IMG/VR virus record: IMGVR_UViG_3300025325_000074
Location: 1 to 39,180 of that record
Reading direction: 5' to 3' (one strand)
Source of the DNA: a virus
DNA: 39,180 nucleotides
The translations under genes and the position numbers were made by a program. Positions within the stretch are counted from its first letter, which is position 1; each line of letters opens with the position of its first letter. This document shows, piece after piece, positions 1-36,360 of this stretch. The notes below the pieces were generated by a model that was given only the letters and a program-made list of their open reading frames with translations, was not told the origin of the DNA and made no database searches.

Positions 1-186
1 GGAAGGCTAAGCAGTCGTAGGCTCATGTGGCCGTCAGCACTGTCGCCGACATCTGCCGTGGGGCGCTACAGGCGCTAGGCGTCCTCGCGTCGGGCGAGGT
101 GATGTCTGCAGCCGACGGCGACCTGGCACTCGAGCTACTCAACGGCCTTCTGGATCAGTGGGCGGCTGACAACCGTGCCATCTACT
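1..186. repeat. Terminal overlap, left copy (same as 38995-39180)
   Basis: Bases 1-186 match 38995-39180 except at two positions: A128 versus G39122, and T176 versus C39170. Both are third codon positions in the gp4-like gene and are silent (Ala and Arg codons). The overlap shows the contig closes into a circle of about 38,994 bp. It is most simply the assembly overlap of a circularly permuted, headful-packaged genome. A genuine short direct terminal repeat is the alternative. Confidence 0.9.
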
Positions 187-761
187 TCAGCACCCGCACC
201 GTCAAAGCGATCACGCCGAGTGACGGGAGCTACACGGTGGGCGCAGGGGGCGATGTGGACATCGTGCGCCCTGTGTTCCTGGACGATGTCCGGCTCATCG
301 ACACGGCGCCGACTCCGGACCTCGAGACACCTCTCCTCCAACTGACTGACGCTGCATATCGGGAGTGGCCGAACAAGGCGCTGGAAAACACCATGCCTCA
401 AGCGTGGTGGTATAACCCGACGTTCAGCACCGCGCGCGGTACGCTCGAGTTGTTGCCGATTCCGACGGGGACGACGCTCCAGTTTGCCCTGTACTCGCCG
501 ACTGCGGTTGCCAGGCAAGCTGCGCTGACGAGCGCGTTCAGCTTGCCGCCCGGTTATGAGCGGATGCTGCGCACCAACCTGGCTGTCGAGCTCGCGGCTC
601 CGTTTGAGAGCCAGGTGTCCGCTGGCCTCGCCAAGGCTGCAGCCGAGAGCATGGGAGTGGTCAAGCGCGCCAACGCTCGGCCGGCAGAGTTGAAGCTCGA
701 CCCTGCGGCGCTGATCGGCGTCGGTCACAGCCGATGGTCGATCTACACGGACCAAGGCTGA
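27..761 (+). CDS. P22 gp4-like head-completion / tail accessory protein
   Basis: A 244-residue protein with a GTG start. The opening, with 'VADICRGALQALGVLASGE' followed by a helix ending in 'LNGLLDQWAADN', is the layout of the P22 gp4 family. This family forms the first ring below the portal after DNA packaging. The C-terminal part carries a helical stretch 'AFSLPPGYERMLRTNLAVEL', also typical of that family. It follows the coat cluster (across the circle junction) and overlaps the gp10-like gene by one base (TGATG), matching the P22 order of portal, scaffold, coat, gp4, gp10. The GTG start lies 6 bases after the stop of the upstream gene (seen intact at 39014). No lysozyme motif is visible, although some gp4 relatives are described as peptidoglycan hydrolases. 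Confidence 0.85.
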   Translation: MAVSTVADICRGALQALGVLASGEVMSAADGDLALELLNGLLDQWAADNRAIYFSTRTVKAITPSDGSYTVGAGGDVDIVRPVFLDDVRLIDTAPTPDLETPLLQLTDAAYREWPNKALENTMPQAWWYNPTFSTARGTLELLPIPTGTTLQFALYSPTAVARQAALTSAFSLPPGYERMLRTNLAVELAAPFESQVSAGLAKAAAESMGVVKRANARPAELKLDPAALIGVGHSRWSIYTDQG

Positions 762-3765: not shown

Positions 3766-4397
3766 TCGCCTCAAGGGAACCGTGCGGCCCGGACGGGTAC
3801 ACACCAGACGGCTCGCCATGCCAACCTGAGCCAGGGCCGCCACCGCCGCCTCCGGAGTCTCCAGGGCCGCTAGAATTCCCGAAGCAGCCCACAGGCGAAG
3901 TTGAAGTCGGAGGTGAGGGCGGAGGTGAAGACCTCGGCTTCTCGCCGTTCTCGGGCCCGATGAGCTTCCGGTACAACGTGCCTGGCGTCCCGCGCTTCCG
4001 GGCTCCGGTGTTCCGGGCGCCCTCGGCAGCGGAGGCGCTGGAGGAGCCTGGTTACAAGTTCGGAGCCGAGGAAGGCCGCCGGGCGCTCGAGGCGTCTGCA
4101 TCCGGCAGGGGTACGCTGCGTACGGGGGGCACGCTCAAGGACATCGTGGCGTGGGGCGACCGCTTCGCGACTCAGCACTACGGAGACGTATTCAACCGCG
4201 CTCTCTCCGCGTTCGACCGTCTCTATCAGGGCAGCCGCGACGAGTACGCGCCGTTGCTCGCGGAATGGAACGCACGCAGTGCTGCGGGCCTGCGTGGCGC
4301 GGAGCTGGACTGGGCGCGCACCTACGATCAGTGGGCGCTCGAGCAGCAGCTCCGTGCGCAACGCGAGGCTGCGATTCTAGGAGCCGGAGCCGGATAA
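3762..4397 (+). CDS. DNA-transfer / ejection-type virion protein
   Basis: A 211-residue protein. A Pro/Gly-rich N-terminus (to about residue 65) leads to a helical C-terminal half. That half contains a recognisable block seen in many phage DNA-transfer proteins: 'EPGYKFGAEEGRRALEASA', then 'SGRGTLRTGGTLKDIV', then 'ATQHYGDVFNRALSAFDRLY'. The family consensus is roughly 'pGYqFrl.eGl.aLe.saaarG.l.sGgtlk.l..yg...as.eY...yNR'. It is likely an internal virion or tail-channel protein delivered with the genome. It is ATGA-coupled to the zinc-ribbon gene and followed 6 bases later by the next ejection candidate. Confidence 0.65.
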   Translation: MIASREPCGPDGYTPDGSPCQPEPGPPPPPPESPGPLEFPKQPTGEVEVGGEGGGEDLGFSPFSGPMSFRYNVPGVPRFRAPVFRAPSAAEALEEPGYKFGAEEGRRALEASASGRGTLRTGGTLKDIVAWGDRFATQHYGDVFNRALSAFDRLYQGSRDEYAPLLAEWNARSAAGLRGAELDWARTYDQWALEQQLRAQREAAILGAGAG

Positions 4398-4403
4398 CGC
4401 AGC

Positions 4404-5783
4404 ATGCCAGCCGCGATCCCGTACGCGCCAGCCGACTACTACCGGCCCCGGAACCGCATCGCCGATCTGATCCTGGCTGCGGGCCAAGCGCGTGCTGCGG
4501 GCGCCGCACGCAGCGGAGAGATCTGGGGAGACGCGATCGCTCGAGCGGCGTCCGGCATCGGTGGAGCTATCGCGGATGCTCCGCGGCTGCGTGCGGAGAG
4601 CACCGAGCGTGAGGCTGCCACCGCCTTCCGTGAGCGCCAGATGGCTGCCCTGGAACGAGGAGAGCAGAGGGAGGAGGCTGTCAGTGGCGCTCTCGGTGGG
4701 TATGGCCAAGAGGACTTCGACATCAATGCAGCGGTGAGCTCACTGCCTCCCGACGCGCAACTCGGAGCGCGGAAGATCTACCAGGAGCTCGAGTCCTCGC
4801 GGCTTCAGGCTGACGAGAGCACCGCGTACGTGCTGGCGAAGGGTGCGCGCATCGCAGAGAGCCTGCTGGAGACGCCGTTGCAAGACGTCGGCATGGAGCT
4901 GGTGTCCAAGTACTTCCGCCAGCACTTCCCGCAGCAGATGGAGCGCCTCGAGGCCACCGTGAAGGAGGACCCATCGAAGCTGAAGCCGCTACTGCAGCAC
5001 CTACAGGGACAGTCCGAGCGGTTCCGGAAGGAACTGGAGGCGAGGAAACCAAAGACGCGTGAGATCAAGACGCGCCAGCCTGGGGGCGGCGAGCGGATTG
5101 AGATCGTCGAGGACGTGCCGGGGCTCACGCGCGAAAGCGCGCCGGCGCCCGAACAGCCGCTCTCGCGGATCGAGGCCGAGGCAGCCGCACGAGCGCGCGG
5201 TACGGCGAGAGGGAAGCCACCCGGCGGTGACGAGGAGATGACGTTGAGCCCCGAGGGCGTTGTGCTCTCCAGCTATGGTCCGACGAAGAAGTCTGAAGTG
5301 CGCCGCCAGGCGATGGAGCGCGGGCTGCCTGTGTTCGAGACTGCTGCGGCGCAAGGCAAGGGCATCACGCTGGCTGGGATCGTAGCCGACGCGAAAGAGT
5401 TGAACGACTTGCTAGCGGACCCAGAGGTTCAGGCGGCGGTGGGCCCGGTTGCTGGGCGATGGGCGCAAGCCCGGGGCACTGTCATGTCGCTTCCGGGGTC
5501 GGTGCGTCGGGCGCTCCAACTCATGACCTCGCTGTCGGACACCGAGCTGCGCAAGCGGTCTGGTGCAGCGATCAGCCCGGGTGAGATGCAGCGGATTCTC
5601 AAGTTCGCCACCGACCCTAACAAGCCGCTTGACCACAACACCATGGCGGTTTCGGGCCTGCTTAAGTCTGCGGCGCGCGACTACAAGGCGCTCTCCGGAG
5701 TCGACCTGGGCGTGGCGAATGAGCCAGAGTCAGATCCGGTGTCCGAGATCCTCTCGATCTTTAACGCAGCCGGGCGCCGCTGA
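4404..5783 (+). CDS. Large helical ejection-type virion protein
   Basis: A 459-residue, mostly alpha-helical and highly charged protein. It has an N-terminal Ala-rich helix (residues 20-60), long Glu/Arg/Gln helices with coiled-coil character (60-210), a Pro-rich linker near 245-255, and a C-terminal helical region from about 285 ('TLSPEGVVLSSYG') to the end. It contains 'LADPEVQAAVGPVAGRWAQA', a segment resembling recurrent domains in large internal virion proteins. No enzymatic motif is evident. It lies between two other ejection candidates and shares one base with the next start (TGATG). The role is inferred from order and composition. Confidence 0.6.
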   Translation: MPAAIPYAPADYYRPRNRIADLILAAGQARAAGAARSGEIWGDAIARAASGIGGAIADAPRLRAESTEREAATAFRERQMAALERGEQREEAVSGALGGYGQEDFDINAAVSSLPPDAQLGARKIYQELESSRLQADESTAYVLAKGARIAESLLETPLQDVGMELVSKYFRQHFPQQMERLEATVKEDPSKLKPLLQHLQGQSERFRKELEARKPKTREIKTRQPGGGERIEIVEDVPGLTRESAPAPEQPLSRIEAEAAARARGTARGKPPGGDEEMTLSPEGVVLSSYGPTKKSEVRRQAMERGLPVFETAAAQGKGITLAGIVADAKELNDLLADPEVQAAVGPVAGRWAQARGTVMSLPGSVRRALQLMTSLSDTELRKRSGAAISPGEMQRILKFATDPNKPLDHNTMAVSGLLKSAARDYKALSGVDLGVANEPESDPVSEILSIFNAAGRR

Positions 5784-20890: not shown

Positions 20891-20965
20891 CGCGGGGTAG
20901 CGAAACGGTAACGCGCTCGGCTCATAACCGAGAGGATGCGGGTTCAACTCCCGCCTCCGCTACCA
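20891..20965 (+). tRNA. tRNA-Met (anticodon CAT), CCA encoded
   Basis: 75 bases fold as a complete cloverleaf. The acceptor is 20891-20897 with 20955-20961, the D stem GCG/CGC, the anticodon stem CTCGG/CCGAG with loop CTCATAA (CAT at 20923-20925), a 5-base variable loop, a T stem GCGGG/CCCGC with loop TTCAACT, discriminator A and encoded CCA. Position 1-72 is C against U, an unpaired end like the C1-A72 mismatch of initiator tRNAs. However, the D stem has C11-G24, as in elongators. The anticodon could also be read as tRNA-Ile if lysidine-modified. It begins 3 bases after the lysin stop. Confidence 0.9.
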
Positions 20966-28242: not shown

Positions 28243-28731
28243 ATGCCTCGCTGTCACGCTCGGTCAAAGCACGGGCCGTGCAAAGCCTCTGCGATCAAGG
28301 GCGGCGTAGTCTGCGGTATGCACGGCGGGCGTGCCCCTCAGGTCAAGCGCAAGGCTGCTCAGCGCTTGGCTGACCTGATCGACCCCGACCGGGCGCTGCG
28401 CGAGGCCGCCCGGCTGGCGTACTCGGACCTCAGCGAGCTGTACGACGATCAGAGTCGGCTCAAGCCGGTGAAAGACTGGCCGAAGGATCTCAAGGCGGCG
28501 GTGGGCAGGATCAAGACGCTCAAGCACAACGAGACTGCGGGCGACGGCAAGCAGGAGACCGTGGTCGAGGTGCAGCTCTGGGACAAGCCGCGGGCGCTCG
28601 AGATGCTCTTCAAGCACCTAGGCCTGCTTCGGGAGCGCCTTGAGGTGGACGTGAGCGAGGGCCTGGTGGAGCGCTTGCTAGCCGGCCGCCGCCGCGTGGC
28701 CGAAGATCGGTCAAAGTACCCCCCCAAATAA
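28243..28731 (+). CDS. Small terminase subunit (TerS-like), zinc-finger type
   Basis: A 162-residue protein. The N-terminus shows 'CHARSKHGPCKASAIKGGVV' followed by 'CGMHGGRAPQVKRKAAQRL'. This C-x(n)-G-x-P-C-x-x-x-A-x-x-G-x-x-x-C-x-x-H-G-G motif is widespread in phage small-terminase candidates. The C-terminal half is helical ('WDKPRALEMLFKHLGLLRER'), which is also typical. The gene sits immediately upstream of TerL, 5 bases apart. The role is to recognise the pac site and regulate TerL. Confidence 0.7.
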   Translation: MPRCHARSKHGPCKASAIKGGVVCGMHGGRAPQVKRKAAQRLADLIDPDRALREAARLAYSDLSELYDDQSRLKPVKDWPKDLKAAVGRIKTLKHNETAGDGKQETVVEVQLWDKPRALEMLFKHLGLLRERLEVDVSEGLVERLLAGRRRVAEDRSKYPPK

Positions 28732-28736
28732 ATCTC

Positions 28737-31304
28737 GTGCCCGTGGCCGCCCGTCCAACCTCTGACGATCAGCTTGCAGACGAGGTCGCGCGCTACTTCG
28801 CGGACCCGCTGGGGTTCGTGCTGTTCGCGTATCCGTGGGGCGAGCCCGGGGCCCTTGAGGGGCACGACGGGCCCGACATCTGGCAGCGTGAGTTTCTGCG
28901 GGGCGTCGGCGCTGAGGTCGCGGCCGCAGCGTTTGACGGCTTGACGCCGGTCGCGCCCATCCGGCGTGCGGTGGCGTCAGGTCATGGGGTGGGCAAAAGC
29001 ACGATGGCCGCGTGGCTTGTGGACTGGATCATGAGTACACGTCCGTTAGCGCGCGGCACCGTCACGGCGAACACGTTCACGCAGCTCCAGACCAAGACCT
29101 GGTCCGCCATCAAGGAGTGGACGTCGCGCTGCATCACTGCGCACTGGTGGGTGCTCGGCGACCAGCGCATGTACCACAAGGACCACAAGGACTCCTGGTT
29201 CTGCGCGCCGCAGTCGTGCAAGGAGGAGAACACGGAAGCGTTCGCCGGCCAGCACGCAGCGACCTCGACGAGCTTCTACATCTTCGACGAGGACTCGGCC
29301 ATCTCGGACAAGATTCACGAGGTCGCGGAGGGCGGCTTGACGGACGGTCAGCCGATGATCTTCCGGTTCGGCAACCCGACGCGCAGCATGGGCGGATTTC
29401 ACGCCGCGGTGTTCGGTCACGACCGTGCGCGTTGGCACCCGACGATCATCGACTCGCGTCAGTCTCGGCTGACGAACAAGGCGCAGATCGCGGAGTGGGA
29501 GCAGGAGTTCGGAGAGGACTCCGACTTTTTCCGCGTCCGGGTCCGCGGCATTCCGCCGCGGGCCTCTGACGCACAGTTCATCGACCACGAGCGTGTACTC
29601 CAGGCTCAGAAGCGCCAGGTGGCGGTGATGCCGGACGAGCCGCTGGTGGTCGGGTGTGACCTTGCGTGGGGCGGCTGTTTCGACTGCGAGACCGAGATTC
29701 TCACGAGCGATGGCTGGAAACTCTTTTCAGACCTGCGTGGATCGGAAGCAGTGCTGAGTTTGGATGGCGACGTAGCCACTTGGGCGCGCATGACGGCGAT
29801 CCATCGTTACTGGCATGATGGGGCGATGAACTTGCGCGAGTCGAGCAAGGTAAACTTTTGCGTAACTGACAACCACAACTTCATCGTGCGCTCGCACTAC
29901 ATGAGCAAGCGCTACCAGATTCGGCGGTACGATCGTCTCCCGAAGGCATATCAACTGCGGGCGTGGCATCGCTGGGAAGGGACAAGTCCAGCCACGATCG
30001 CCTTCGAATCTCAGAAACGCCAGCCTCACGGGGGCGCTGTTGTCTGGCGCCACACCTTTGCCGCCGAAGACTGGGCGGCGTTTTTGGGCTGGTTCGTTGC
30101 TGAGGGGAACGTCTATACGGCGAAGCTGCGGCCAGGTCAGCAGCAACGCCCACTCGTCGTAGAGCTTTCACAACGCCATGCGGAGAAGCGCAAAGAAATC
30201 GAACGCCTACTTTCTCGAATGGGCCTCCGTCATAGTCGGTGGAGTTCGCATGGCACGATCCGTTTCCAACATCGGGGGATTGGGGCTTGGTTACTGGAGC
30301 ACTGCGGGCATGGAGCTGCGAATAAGCGCATGCCCGAATGGATCAAGGAAGGTTCCGCTATCGTGATGCGGGCCTTTCTCGACGCATTTCGGCGTGGAGA
30401 TGGGAGCCAGCATCCGGATGGAACCGGACGTTGCTACTACACCTCCAGTCGAGCATTGGCGGATGATCTGCAGGAAGTGCTTGCGAAGTTGGGGTGTGCC
30501 GGTAAGCTGTCGCCCGCGGCACCAGCCGGATCGGTTGTGCTGATCGAAGGGCGCCGTGTGGTGCGACAGCACGATACTTGGCGCGTGGGTGAGCGTCCAT
30601 CACATGGTCGGCAAGGGAATCGTTGGCATGCAGATCGGACCGTACTCAAGCGGACAACACAACGTGTCCCGTATCGCGGCTTTGTGTGGTGTGTCTCGAC
30701 TCCGCACCGAACGATCTATGTTCGTCGTCATGGTGTTCCGATGTGGAGTGGGAACAGTGACGACAACGTGATCCGGTTCCGGCGCGGGAACGATGCGCGG
30801 TCGATCTCTCCGATCCGGATCAAGGGCGAGTTCACGCGCGACCCGGCAGTGCTCGTCAACCGGTTGGCGGACGTGCTGTCACGCACATGGGATGAGCATC
30901 CGGTAGCGGCGCTGTTTCTGGACAGCGCGGGGATCGCGGGCCCGATAGGCGCGCGGCTCCGGGCGCTTGGGTTTCAGCAGGTGCGCGAGATCAACTTCGG
31001 CAGCGACAGCCCCGACAGCAAGTGCCGGTACTATCGCGACTACATGTGGCAGCAGATGAAGGAGTGGCTGCTCGTGGGCGCGATCGACACGAGCGCGGAG
31101 CTCGAGAGCGACTTGATCGGACCCGGCGTGCGACCCGACCCGCGTCAGCGCGTGTGGCTCGAGAGCAAGGAGCAAATGAAGGGACGGGGTGTAGACTCTC
31201 CAGACGAAGGGGATGCCTTGAGCCTCACGTTCGCTGCGCCGGTGGGAGTCGTCCAGCGGCCGACGTCTCGCGTGAAACGGCCTGGGTCCTGGATGGGGGT
31301 GTAG
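28737..31304 (+). CDS. terL: Large terminase subunit with in-frame intein
   Basis: 855 residues in total; 495 after removing the intein at 314-673. ATPase: Walker A 'SGHGVGKST' (81-89) and Walker B 'FYIFDEDS' (180-187, D184/E185). Nuclease (RNase H fold): D308 in 'VGCDLAWGG', D729 in 'LFLDSAGIAGPIGARL' and D826 in 'SPDEGDALSLTF'. Removing the insert restores 'GCDLAWGG' joined to 'SDDNVIRF', the normal nuclease motif I. The GTG start lies 5 bases after the small terminase stop. TerL cuts and pumps DNA into the P22-like procapsid. Without splicing the nuclease site would be broken. Confidence 0.92.
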   Translation: MPVAARPTSDDQLADEVARYFADPLGFVLFAYPWGEPGALEGHDGPDIWQREFLRGVGAEVAAAAFDGLTPVAPIRRAVASGHGVGKSTMAAWLVDWIMSTRPLARGTVTANTFTQLQTKTWSAIKEWTSRCITAHWWVLGDQRMYHKDHKDSWFCAPQSCKEENTEAFAGQHAATSTSFYIFDEDSAISDKIHEVAEGGLTDGQPMIFRFGNPTRSMGGFHAAVFGHDRARWHPTIIDSRQSRLTNKAQIAEWEQEFGEDSDFFRVRVRGIPPRASDAQFIDHERVLQAQKRQVAVMPDEPLVVGCDLAWGGCFDCETEILTSDGWKLFSDLRGSEAVLSLDGDVATWARMTAIHRYWHDGAMNLRESSKVNFCVTDNHNFIVRSHYMSKRYQIRRYDRLPKAYQLRAWHRWEGTSPATIAFESQKRQPHGGAVVWRHTFAAEDWAAFLGWFVAEGNVYTAKLRPGQQQRPLVVELSQRHAEKRKEIERLLSRMGLRHSRWSSHGTIRFQHRGIGAWLLEHCGHGAANKRMPEWIKEGSAIVMRAFLDAFRRGDGSQHPDGTGRCYYTSSRALADDLQEVLAKLGCAGKLSPAAPAGSVVLIEGRRVVRQHDTWRVGERPSHGRQGNRWHADRTVLKRTTQRVPYRGFVWCVSTPHRTIYVRRHGVPMWSGNSDDNVIRFRRGNDARSISPIRIKGEFTRDPAVLVNRLADVLSRTWDEHPVAALFLDSAGIAGPIGARLRALGFQQVREINFGSDSPDSKCRYYRDYMWQQMKEWLLVGAIDTSAELESDLIGPGVRPDPRQRVWLESKEQMKGRGVDSPDEGDALSLTFAAPVGVVQRPTSRVKRPGSWMGV
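29676..30755 (+). other. Intein with LAGLIDADG homing endonuclease in terL
   Basis: 360 residues, C314 to N673 of the precursor. Block A starts 'CFDCETEILTSDGWKLF'. Block B is 'VTDNHNFIV'. The two endonuclease motifs are 'FLGWFVAEG' (449-457) and 'FLDAFRRGDG' (547-556), with acidic residues E456 and D555. Block F is 'YRGFVWCVSTPHRTIYVRR' and block G is 'VPMWSGN' followed by extein Ser674. The penultimate residue is Gly, not His. The insertion point is between the two halves of nuclease motif I. The DNA is visibly less GC-rich than the flanking terminase coding sequence. Confidence 0.9.
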
Positions 31305-31305
31305 C

Positions 31306-33534
31306 GTGGCCAAGCCGCGGCGCGTAGAGAGCGAGGGCCCGTCGGTGGCGGACAAGGCGATCCTCGATGAGGCCAAGAAGCGCTTCAAGCAGGCGATGGC
31401 TGCTGAAGCCAAGCAACGCGACCGCGAGAAGGAAGTTCTGCGCTTCCAGGTCGGCGAGTACCAGTGGGATGCTGCTGCGCGCGATGCCCGCGAGGGTGCA
31501 GGTGGTACGCAACCCAAGCGCCCGATGCTGAGCATTCCCAAGACCCGACAGCCGCTCAACCTTGTACGCAACCAGTTCCGCGCGAGTCAGCTGGGCATCA
31601 ACATCCATCCGAAGAACGAAACCTCGAGCAAGGAGGGTGCCGAGATCCGCCAGGATCTGATCCGCACGATCGAAGCGGATGGCGAAGGCGCCGAGAACGT
31701 GCTGTTCTGGGCGATGGATCGCGCGCTGCAATGCGGGTCGGGAGCGTTCCGGATCCGGAACGTGTGGGACGAGGAGACGCAGGATCCGCTGGACCAGAAG
31801 CTCATCTTCGAGCGGATCTTCGACCAATCCCTGGTGCTGTTCGATCCCGTGGCGCAGCGTGCCGATCGTAGCGATGGCCGGTTCGCGTTCGTTTTGACGT
31901 GGGTACCGCTGGACGACTTCAAGGAACAGTTTCCGAACGCGAAGACCGATTATGGCGACGACCAGGTGTTCGAGGACTTGCGTCTGGCCGAGCCGGAATG
32001 GGTGACGGGAGACCTAGACACCAAGGCCGTGCTCGTCGCCGAGTACTTCCGCAAGGAGAGCAAGACGCGCCGCTACGTCACGCTCGACGATGGGTCTTCT
32101 GGCTACGACGACGAGCTTCCGGCCGGTCGATTGGTGCAGCCTGACGGTCCCTCACGCGACATGCAGGCGACCAAGATCCTGATCCACAAGCTGACAGCGG
32201 CGGAGGTGCTCGAGACCGACGTCTGGCCCGGGAAGCGCTACATCCCGCTGGTGCCGACGATCGGCGAGGAGCTACAGCCGTTCGACGGCGAACGTCGGCG
32301 TCAGGGTCTCGTGGGGCCCGCGATGGATGCATGCCGGGGCTACAACTACGCGGTAACGACCGCGATCGAGATCACGGCGCTCGAGCCGAAGGCGCCGGTG
32401 GTGGGCTGGGAGGGTCAGTTCGCTGGGCACGAGCACAAGTGGGATACGGTCAACACGCACAACTGGAGTTACCTCGAGGTTCGGCCGACGCTGCTGGATG
32501 GTCAACCGGCGCCATCGTTGCCACAGCGACTCCAGGCGGACACGTCGAAGCTGGGGATGGCGCTCCAGCTTGCGCAGCAGATGGACAACGACATCCAGTC
32601 CTCCACGAACATCACCGACGCTGCGCTGGGTCGGTTCGAAGCGCGACGTCAGTCGGGGAAGGCGATCGAGCTGCTTCAGAATCAGGCGGACTCGAGCACC
32701 AGCGGCTACATCCAGAACATGAAGCTGGTCAGCATGCCGCTCGCTGCACGGATCCTGCTCGATGCGATGCCTGTGGTCTACGACCGGCCGGGACGGATTG
32801 CCCAGGTGATCGACGCTGAGCTACGCCCGCGCCCGATCATGCTCGGGAAGCCGTTCACGATCGACCGTACGACGGGGATGCCAATCGAGTCCCGGGAAGG
32901 CGTGGAAGGGGCGAAGCACTACGACCTGAAGCAGGGTGCGTACGGCGTGACGGTGAACATCGGCAAGGCGTACCAGAGCCGCCAGCAACAGGGTCAGGAA
33001 CAGCTTGCGCAGATGATCCAGGCGGCACCCGAGATGCTGACTGTGTTCGGGGACATTTGGGCGCGGTTCCTCGACGTGCCCGGTAGCCAGGAGCTTGCTG
33101 CGCGGCTGTTGAAGGTGATCGAGACGCAGCGGCCAGGGTTGACGGCGAAGGCGGGCGAGGCGCCGAGCCCCGAACAGCTCACTGCGCAACTGCAAGCCAA
33201 GGACGCCGAGCTGCGTCAGCTCCAGGGCATGCTTGCGAAGGCCACGCAGGCGATCGAGACGAAGATGGCAGAGCAACAGGCGACGATGAAGAAAGCGGAG
33301 ATGGACAACGCGAGCCGCCAAGCGGTCGCCGAGCAGAACAACGCCATGAAGCTGATCCTCGAACGGCTCGAGGCGCAAACGGCGCTCATGCTGAAGCAGA
33401 TGGATCTCACGGACAGCGAGCGGCAACGGCGGCATGAGGTCGGACTGGCGCGCGTAGAGACTGTACTCTCGGCGAGTCAGACGCAGTCCGAATCAAACGC
33501 CAACTCGCGCGGAGAGGGGGAAGATACCGCATGA
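31306..33534 (+). CDS. P22-type portal protein
   Basis: 742 residues from GTG 31306, close to the 725 of P22 gp1. Recognisable stretches include 'PMLSIPKTRQPLNLVRNQFR', 'RFAFVLTWVPLDDFKEQFPN' (the P22-portal 'w...d...k..fP'), 'NITDAALGRFEARRQSGKAI', and a long C-terminal helix from about 630 to 720 rich in Gln, Glu and Lys, matching the barrel helix of P22 portals. It forms the dodecameric DNA gate, binds TerL during packaging and gp4 afterwards. It begins 1 base after the terL stop. Confidence 0.9.
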   Translation: MAKPRRVESEGPSVADKAILDEAKKRFKQAMAAEAKQRDREKEVLRFQVGEYQWDAAARDAREGAGGTQPKRPMLSIPKTRQPLNLVRNQFRASQLGINIHPKNETSSKEGAEIRQDLIRTIEADGEGAENVLFWAMDRALQCGSGAFRIRNVWDEETQDPLDQKLIFERIFDQSLVLFDPVAQRADRSDGRFAFVLTWVPLDDFKEQFPNAKTDYGDDQVFEDLRLAEPEWVTGDLDTKAVLVAEYFRKESKTRRYVTLDDGSSGYDDELPAGRLVQPDGPSRDMQATKILIHKLTAAEVLETDVWPGKRYIPLVPTIGEELQPFDGERRRQGLVGPAMDACRGYNYAVTTAIEITALEPKAPVVGWEGQFAGHEHKWDTVNTHNWSYLEVRPTLLDGQPAPSLPQRLQADTSKLGMALQLAQQMDNDIQSSTNITDAALGRFEARRQSGKAIELLQNQADSSTSGYIQNMKLVSMPLAARILLDAMPVVYDRPGRIAQVIDAELRPRPIMLGKPFTIDRTTGMPIESREGVEGAKHYDLKQGAYGVTVNIGKAYQSRQQQGQEQLAQMIQAAPEMLTVFGDIWARFLDVPGSQELAARLLKVIETQRPGLTAKAGEAPSPEQLTAQLQAKDAELRQLQGMLAKATQAIETKMAEQQATMKKAEMDNASRQAVAEQNNAMKLILERLEAQTALMLKQMDLTDSERQRRHEVGLARVETVLSASQTQSESNANSRGEGEDTA

Positions 33535-33986: not shown

Positions 33987-35108
33987 ATGACCTCCACCGA
34001 GGGCGTCGGCAACGCGCCTACCGGGAACACCAGCTACGTGACTGTCGAGCACGACGGCTGGACTGCCGACAGCAACCGGCTCACCGAAGATCAGGTGCGT
34101 ACCGCTCTCGAGGCGCCATCCGCGAAGGACGAAGCTGCTGCGGCTGCCGCGAAGCTGGGTCAGTTGGGCGGGAAGGCAGCAGCCGAGGCGCGCAAGACGA
34201 AGCCCGTCAAGGCCGACGAGGGTGAGGACCAGGATGCGGCCGATGCGGTTGAAGGTAAGGCTGCGGCGCCCGGCGGGGCGACTGCGAAGCCGGAGTCCGA
34301 AGACGAGAAGGCGGTCGCGATCGAGAAGCGCAAGCGCGATGCCCGCGAGCGAGTGCTGCAAGCCACGCGCGAGGCAGCCGAGCTCAAGCGCCAGCTCCGC
34401 GAGCGTGATGCTGAGATCGAGCGACTGAGGACTGCCACTCGAGAGCCGCTCAAGGACACGCCGCCGCCGGCGGCGGACGATGCCGACGATGAGCCCACGG
34501 TCGAAGCGTACGACGCTGCGGGCAAGGACTTTCAGACGTTCCTGAAGGACCACACCGATTGGGCGGTGCGGAAGGCACTCGACAAAGCCGAGGCCGAACG
34601 CTCTGTCCGAGATCGTCAGCGAAGCTTCCAGAGCGAGATGCAGAAGCATTTCGAAAGCTTCGACAAGCAGATGTCGGAAGCCGGAGGCGCCGCTTTTCTG
34701 GAGGAGCTGGTGCCCGAGTTGCAGGACCTCGAGCCGTCCGTCTTCGCGTTGGCGGATGGCCGCACCCCGAACGCGGCGAATGCACTTGCAGACGAGTGTC
34801 TACGCTCAGCCGATGCGCCTCGGCTGATGCGCTTTCTGTCGGCGCATCCGGACGTAATCCAGCGCCTCTCCACGCTGCGCCCTCGTGAGTTTGAGAGGGA
34901 GATGGGGAAGATCGAGAGCAAGTTGGAGGACGCCGCCACTGCTGGCAATCCGGCGCCCAAGCTCTCGAGTCAAGCACCGCGTCCCGCGCGGCCAGTCGCG
35001 GGAACGACGGCGGTAGTCGATGCGGAGCCCGATCCCCGCGCGTCTTCGTATGAGGAACATGCCTCGTACTACAACGCGCTGGAACGCAGGAGACGGCGCT
35101 CGGCATAG
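33987..35108 (+). CDS. Scaffolding protein
   Basis: 373 residues, highly charged and mostly helical. It is Ala/Glu/Lys/Arg-rich with a coiled coil at about 105-150 ('RERVLQATREAAELKRQLRE') and a Pro/Asp-rich hinge. The basic C-terminal helix 'EEHASYYNALERRRRRSA' corresponds to the coat-binding basic end of P22 scaffold. It lies between portal and coat as in P22. It should direct procapsid assembly and exit or be recycled. The ATG has no ribosome site and coincides with the predicted RNA start of the promoter just upstream. Confidence 0.8.
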   Translation: MTSTEGVGNAPTGNTSYVTVEHDGWTADSNRLTEDQVRTALEAPSAKDEAAAAAAKLGQLGGKAAAEARKTKPVKADEGEDQDAADAVEGKAAAPGGATAKPESEDEKAVAIEKRKRDARERVLQATREAAELKRQLRERDAEIERLRTATREPLKDTPPPAADDADDEPTVEAYDAAGKDFQTFLKDHTDWAVRKALDKAEAERSVRDRQRSFQSEMQKHFESFDKQMSEAGGAAFLEELVPELQDLEPSVFALADGRTPNAANALADECLRSADAPRLMRFLSAHPDVIQRLSTLRPREFEREMGKIESKLEDAATAGNPAPKLSSQAPRPARPVAGTTAVVDAEPDPRASSYEEHASYYNALERRRRRSA

Positions 35109-35142: not shown

Positions 35143-36360
35143 ATGGCGAACACCTTTCAGGATCCGCTCTGGTACCTCAAGGAGGTCGGGCGGGGGTACG
35201 AGAACTCGCTGACGTTCATCGCGCACGTGAAGCGCATCGCGTCGAGCGAGTACAAGGTCGAGGGCGCGAAGGTTGGCAACACCGTCAACTATCGGCTGCC
35301 CCCGCTGTTCATGGTGTCGGACGGTCAGGCGCTGGACGTGCAGAACATCCAGAACCGATCGGTGCCGATCACCCTGACCAACCAGAAGCACGTGGACATG
35401 GGTTGGTCCACGTGGCAGGAGACGACTGAGCTGAACACGGCGATGGAGGAGACGAAGGCCGCGGGCAACGCCCTGGCGTCCGTCATCGACGCGCTGGCGT
35501 TCTCGACGGTCTACAAGGACGTGTACAACGCCGTCGGCACGCTGGGCACGACACCCACGACCCGGCTGACGTACCTCACGGCTGGGCGCCTGCTGACGGA
35601 CCTCGCCGTGACCAAGCAGGGTCGCAATGCGGTGCTGGATCCGGAAGCCGCGATCCAGATCGCGGACACCGTGGCGGCCATGTTCAACCCGCGTGAGGAG
35701 TCGTCCGAAGCCTTCCGTGAAGGGTTCATGGGTAAGGGGCTCGGACTCACGTTTTACGAAGACCAGAACGTGGCCACGTTCACGAGCGGAGCCGCTACCG
35801 GCGCAAGTACGCCCTTGGTGAACGGCGCGAACCAGACCGGCTCGAGCCTGATCACCGATGGCTGGTCCAGCTTCTCCGGAGTCAAGGGAGACACCTTCAC
35901 TCTGGGAGGGGTGTTCTCGGTCAACCCGCTGAGCAAGAAGTCCACCGGACGGCTACAGCGCTTCGCGCTCACCGCGAACGTATCGGACACCGCGGGCGAT
36001 GCCACTCTCAGCATCACGCCGTCGATCGTCACGTCGGGCGCGTACCAGAACGTGAGCAACAGCCCGGCCAACAACGCGGTGCTCACCTACTGGAACATGG
36101 CTGCGGGCGGAACGTTCGCCGCGACCGTGTCTCCGACGTCGATGGTATTCCATCCCGCGGCGTTCGCGTTCGTGACCGCGGACCTGGTCAAGCCGAACGG
36201 TGGCGCCAACGTCGAGCGGATCAGTTCTCCCGCTCGAGGAGTGGCGCTTCGTATGGCTGAGCAGTGGGACGTCCGCACCGACCAGAACATCACGCGCATC
36301 GACACGATCGTGGGCGCTGCGACGCTCGACGCTCGTTTCGCTGTTCGCGCGCAAGGGTAG
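35143..36360 (+). CDS. P22-type major coat protein (HK97 fold)
   Basis: 405 residues, near the 430 of P22 gp5. Hallmarks of the P22 coat family include 'ANTFQDPLWYLKEVGRGYEN', 'GNTVNYRLPPLFMVSDGQAL' and 'NRSVPITLTNQKHVDMGWST', then 'GFMGKGLGLTFYEDQNVATF' and a C-terminal region 'WDVRTDQNITRIDTIVGAAT' with 'ARFAVRAQG'. It forms the T=7 icosahedral shell. A short GGGCC/GGCCC hairpin lies in the 34-base gap before the ATG. The upstream scaffold and downstream accessory genes complete the head cluster. Confidence 0.92.
   Translation: MANTFQDPLWYLKEVGRGYENSLTFIAHVKRIASSEYKVEGAKVGNTVNYRLPPLFMVSDGQALDVQNIQNRSVPITLTNQKHVDMGWSTWQETTELNTAMEETKAAGNALASVIDALAFSTVYKDVYNAVGTLGTTPTTRLTYLTAGRLLTDLAVTKQGRNAVLDPEAAIQIADTVAAMFNPREESSEAFREGFMGKGLGLTFYEDQNVATFTSGAATGASTPLVNGANQTGSSLITDGWSSFSGVKGDTFTLGGVFSVNPLSKKSTGRLQRFALTANVSDTAGDATLSITPSIVTSGAYQNVSNSPANNAVLTYWNMAAGGTFAATVSPTSMVFHPAAFAFVTADLVKPNGGANVERISSPARGVALRMAEQWDVRTDQNITRIDTIVGAATLDARFAVRAQG

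Follow-up and report, generated by a model that had tools for sequence, protein, structure and literature searches.

A class 1 intein with a predicted LAGLIDADG homing endonuclease at nuclease motif I of a phage large terminase

Inteins in the large terminase subunit (TerL) are among the commonest inteins of phages, and cases in the nuclease domain have already been published. TerL nucleases belong to the RNase H-like enzymes and work by a two-metal mechanism (PMC7617512). In mycobacteriophages, inteins occur in the TerL of tailed phages, where their splicing was tested, and each of the seven sites falls within the ATPase domain (PMC5050341). Delta-group crAss-like phages also typically carry a TerL intein (PMC7886860). 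Here we analyzed a TerL gene in a virus sequence of 39,180 nucleotides (IMG/VR record IMGVR_UViG_3300025325_000074), referred to as the window. The record is a single virus contig without a second copy, and the intein protein was found 100% identical in three further metagenome contigs.

The TerL gene starts with GTG and extends from 28737 to 31304 on the plus strand as 855 codons, with no stops or frameshifts. Codon 314 is a Cys at 29676, which is residue 1 of the intein, and TerL residue 673 is an Asn (30753-30755), which is intein residue 360 and is followed by the +1 Ser at 30756. The segment from 29676 to 30755 (+) is intact and in frame between GCDLAWGG and SDDNV of TerL. The initial annotation had placed a 360-residue intein here, and its coordinates and in-frame boundaries were exact. 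The N-extein (313 aa, 28737..29675, +) consists of the ATPase domain and nuclease strand 1, as judged from a match to the terminase large subunit family PHROG_2 (3e-21), homologue alignments and an AlphaFold2 (AF2) model of L010, a natural intein-free homologue. It contains the Walker A motif GHGVGKST, the Walker B motif FYIFDED and the motif I Asp in GCDLAWGG. The C-extein (182 aa and the stop codon, 30756..31304, +) starts with the +1 Ser and contains nuclease strands 2 onward, with the motif II Asp in LFLDSAG and motif III in SPDEGDA. The joined exteins, of 313 and 182 residues, give a TerL of 495 residues, an ATPase with an RNase H-like nuclease of three acidic motifs, in which D308 of the N-extein and D369, D464 and D467 of the C-extein are invariant in homologues.

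The gene is flanked by the terminase small subunit (28243..28731, +; PHROG_51) and the portal protein (31306..33534, +; PHROG_156, 1.6e-77), followed by the scaffold (33987..35108, +; PHROG_8865) and the major head protein (35143..36360, +; PHROG_283). The Lederbergvirus BIS08P22, a Salmonella phage, has the same order of small terminase, TerL, portal, scaffold and major head protein, and its TerL shares 43% identity with that of the window. The description of the phage as P22-like is thus justified with respect to TerL and the order of the head genes. The closest TerLs of isolates, with 46-48% identity, belong to Vibrio and Pseudomonas phages with genomes of 42-43 kb. The head genes at 28.2-37 kb run off the right end, and a head-closure protein Hc3 (PHROG_578) is located at 734-2230; hence the window probably represents a nearly complete genome that is circularly permuted and has its ends within the head module. 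At 20891-20965 there is a single tRNA-Met(CAT) gene.

In order to find empty sites, viral contigs were searched with the N-extein and, separately, with the C-extein. About 100 TerL loci with 43-90% identity aligned unbroken across the junction, and the only split alignments came from the window's own near-identical contigs. Intein-free relatives, some about 90% identical, are therefore plentiful, and the segment is not the conserved terminase domain that would have spoken against an intein. The closest intein-free alleles (L010, L012 and L089) are 89.5% identical and read GCDLAWGG/EDDNVIRF, with the slash marking the junction here and below. D308 (of GCD), G312 and G313 are invariant among 37 homologues. 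However, the +1 position varies, and in a hand count over 107 intein-free loci it was Ser in about 59, while the others mostly had Ala, Gly, Glu or Asp. The view that the intein occupies a conserved active site thus holds up to the junction but fails at the +1 residue. Since the closest intein-free relative has Glu at this position, its +1 residue could not act as a splicing nucleophile.

The location of the junction within the nuclease was determined from the L010 model (pLDDT 88). The best PDB matches of this model were Sf6 gp2, D6E TerL, T4 gp17 and isolated TerL nuclease domains including E217. A strand at 303-308 ends in Asp308 and is followed by a loop and a second strand at 317-323, and the junction 313/314 is in this loop. 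The model thus puts the insertion site between nuclease strands 1 and 2 and five residues past the motif I Asp, which is invariant, in agreement with the initial proposal of an insertion in motif I directly after GCDLAWGG. The motif I Asp is thereby separated from motifs II and III, with the former in the N-extein and the latter two in the C-extein. A homologue profile search matched the E217 TerL nuclease domain (PDB 8dkr, E 0.001) at the motif III end, and a weak second stretch of the same match aligned GFDVADDGEDANA with GvDvarGGsddnv. No match was obtained in the PDB when the extein was used as a single sequence, or in Pfam for the joined extein, so profile and fold searches were needed.

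The insert has all of the splicing blocks proposed for it (A, B, F and G), and these are kept in relatives. The N-terminal splicing part (29676..29895, +), assigned by alignments and a HINT match, contains block A, CFDCETEILTSDGWK, in which Cys1 and CFDCETEILTSDGW are conserved, and block B, VTDNH, in which T64-D-N-H67 is kept in the intein of the contig L005 (IMG/VR 3300009537_000595) and in the TerL intein of Gordonia phage GMA6. The C-terminal splicing part (30654..30755, +), assigned by alignments, contains block F, RVPYRGFVWCVSTPH, with Cys339, and block G, MWSGN, which reads SGN/S at the junction and ends in Asn360 before the +1 Ser. The penultimate residue is Gly359 and not the His that is usual, though not obligatory, in block G; the same Gly is found in the inteins of L005, GMA6, Lak phage and others. 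The penultimate His is dispensable in some inteins, so Gly359 does not exclude the element from class 1, and a Gly at this position can slow Asn cyclization in some inteins. Class 3 inteins have no Cys or Ser at position 1 and a W-C-T triad, whereas Cys1 is present here. The match of the insert to TIGR01445 (intein N-terminal region) scored below the cut-off of that model.

Between the two splicing parts is a LAGLIDADG endonuclease domain (30063..30575, +). PF14528 (LAGLIDADG_3) matched the insert at an E value of 9e-10 in two stretches, as anticipated from the two endonuclease motifs noticed earlier. The motifs are FLGWFVAEGNV with Glu143 and FLDAFRRGDGS with Asp242. Both acidic residues align in the L005 intein, and the block D Lys217 is also in this domain. 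An AF2 model of the intein was built from 13 sequences (pLDDT 72.8; residues 283-327 weak). Foldseek with this model found complete intein-endonucleases, namely 7qsu (2.9e-16), PI-SceI and PI-PfuI. With VIA-align, the two ends of the model (range 1..360) matched the HINT domains of NpuDnaE (Z 11.2, 116 residues, 3.2 Å) and AceL NrdHF (Z 12.8, 121 residues, 3.0 Å), and residues 127-329 matched I-DmoI (Z about 15, 3.1 Å). The insert is therefore predicted to be a HINT fold with an I-DmoI-like endonuclease, and the structure prediction that could have spoken against a HINT fold pointed to one. Taken together, the sequence motifs, the predicted fold and the empty sites confirmed the insert as a class 1 intein.

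Related inteins were found by tblastn with the insert, which gave matches in 151 phage records; in 139 of these, at least 80% of the insert was covered. The matches included an intein of a Lak phage (3e-27) and that of GMA6, the best full-length match among TerL-borne inteins of isolates (27.5% identity, 4e-22). Full-length homologous inteins together with a clean absence from about 100 homologues put the intein call far from chance. A relative at the same insertion point, which the initial annotation had suggested looking for elsewhere, is in L005, where a 43-45% identical intein ends at the junction MWSGN/SDLSVV. The TerL of L005 is distant (43% identical to that of the window) and less GC-rich, and its N-extein is not seen because the contig starts within the N-terminal residues of the intein. 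We found no description of this intein. At least two changes (gains or losses) are needed to explain the same-site label across a tree built from 111 C-exteins. Such a sporadic pattern is that of a homing element, which is either old with many losses or has moved between clades. The GC3 of the insert is 0.61, compared with 0.856 and 0.835 for the exteins, and this low GC3 and the patchy distribution indicate that the intein is a mobile newcomer. One scan of genome contigs with short patterns found no prophage carrying the window intein.

Other inteins were found in the wider TerL family. An intein in L148 (2534-3607) interrupts Walker B (LLMDEG/SNIP); it shares its style with that of the window and is 29% identical to it. 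L148 belongs to the same small clade as L005, and L147 is without an insert at the Walker B site. A further intein interrupts the P-loop of the L161 TerL (HRRC...HN/SGKDK) and is not detectably related to that of the window. Including the window, the wider family has thus been invaded at three active-site positions. Outside TerL, a related intein family with 26-30% identity, ending in THN/S, is found in a phage metallophosphoesterase-like gene (L128-L139), and related inteins were also observed in ThyX-like genes (L141 and L142).

A separate observation was made in a contig of a Candidatus Altiarchaeota MAG (DAOVSE010000051.1; L143:4001-5104), where a HINT/intein-like element, CYDEETEILTSDGWK...IWSGN/S, with no recognizable endonuclease is located in a secreted-looking repeat protein of 1,084+ residues. 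Two proteins are encoded antisense within this element, one matching DUF433 (4607-4897, 4.5e-21) and the other a PIN-like protein of the DUF5615/Mut7-C type (4270-4860, 1.7e-11); the two together are characteristic of toxin-antitoxin pairs. A pair located in this way inside an intein-like element would be unusual; this is a single locus and may be a recent insertion.

Mosaics of two haplotypes were observed among the close relatives, in L088 and L008 with the intein and in L010 without it. Identity between the window and L010 is 83% on the upstream side of the junction and 97.9% on the downstream side. A co-conversion or homing footprint was considered for this difference and rejected, since positions 30759-31279 are as diverged as in the intein-free L089. 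The haplotype switches (L010 and L088 against window 31121-32982) fell in the longest identical runs, of 86, 88 and 62 bp, as expected of an assembler joining mixed strains or of ordinary recombination, and they are no evidence of homing. Either an assembler join or a real recombinant requires both alleles together, and the mosaics suggest that intein-bearing and intein-free alleles occur in the same samples.

We propose, with a probability of about 95%, that the insert in the large terminase gene is a mobile class 1 intein that encodes a LAGLIDADG homing endonuclease, is spliced out of the protein and homes, and that the precursor is nuclease-dead. The proposal is based on the sequence motifs, the intactness of the reading frame, the empty sites, the predicted folds, the same-site relative and the foreign base composition, from which we infer splicing, cutting, homing and the inactivity of the precursor. 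The terminase gene would be translated as an 855-residue precursor, in which the HINT domain would act through Cys1 and Ser+1 by an N-S acyl shift, transesterification and cyclization of Asn360. The 360 residues would be excised and GCDLAWGG joined to SDDNV to give the 495-residue TerL. The endonuclease would cleave the junction in terL alleles without the intein, and the element would spread when the break is repaired from an intein-bearing copy. Since the insert is in the loop between strands 1 and 2, five residues past the Asp, the unexcised 360 residues would be expected to disable the nuclease, and a dependence of packaging on splicing is a reasonable reading of the same geometry. For the same reason, a deletion that removes the intein imprecisely would be expected to be lethal.

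The intact reading frame makes an unspliced 855-aa protein conceivable, in which the segment would be a lineage-specific terminase domain that is not excised. We consider this extremely improbable, because the nuclease would then be split between strands 1 and 2, all of the splice-junction residues are present, and the insert matches inteins of unrelated genes and is absent from 89.5% identical homologues. The HINT element could instead cleave without ligation and give a two-part TerL with trans-complementing halves, a reading for which the penultimate Gly in place of His speaks. However, the +1 Ser and Asn360 are kept in both the window and L005, and the two halves would have to reassemble an RNase H-like core around motif I, so this outcome is very unlikely as well.

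Another reading would add to the preferred one, a mobile splicing intein: slow or conditional splicing may serve as a timing switch that delays the nuclease until late infection. A redox route through Cys1 and Cys339 is conceivable, the insertion is in the active-site region of the nuclease, and a regulatory role of TerL inteins has already been suggested (PMC5050341, PMC7156551). By far most relatives are nevertheless without the intein, and its foreign base composition and patchy distribution are those of a selfish element; a timing role is thus unlikely. We also consider unlikely the broader view that the motif I site is a distinct, unrecorded homing site across distant phage clades, with splicing gating DNA cleavage and the intein kept as a packaging switch.

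With its close intein-bearing and intein-free alleles and a distant same-site relative, the locus offers a natural pair for tests of splicing, masking and homing. Compared with described systems, the window intein is in the nuclease core, unlike the TerL inteins of mycobacteriophages, which are in the ATPase domain (PMC5050341). The GMA6 intein (AKL88284, KR063280) is likewise a class 1 element with Cys1...SGN/S and LAGLIDADG, but it is inserted in the ATPase domain (KYKFQ/SAEYQF). Microcystis phage Mic1 has an intein in the TerL nuclease domain as in the window (PMC7156551); by our own reading of its sequence, that intein is small and located at motif III (QQDHL/CDALRY), whereas the site in the window is motif I. 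The crAss-like TerL inteins (cr118_1, L122) are LAGLIDADG inteins at nuclease motif I as well, but they belong to other phage and intein families, and that of cr118_1 is just before the motif I Asp (YIAG/CDPYDHD, with an HN/C end), whereas that of the window is after it. The site after DxAxGG is distinct from the known TerL sites compared and, among the sequences searched, is common only to L005; it is possibly uncatalogued in the literature. Hence, a nuclease-core insertion point is added to the list of TerL inteins and the general picture of inteins is unchanged, the element being of an ordinary, well-known kind at an interesting position.
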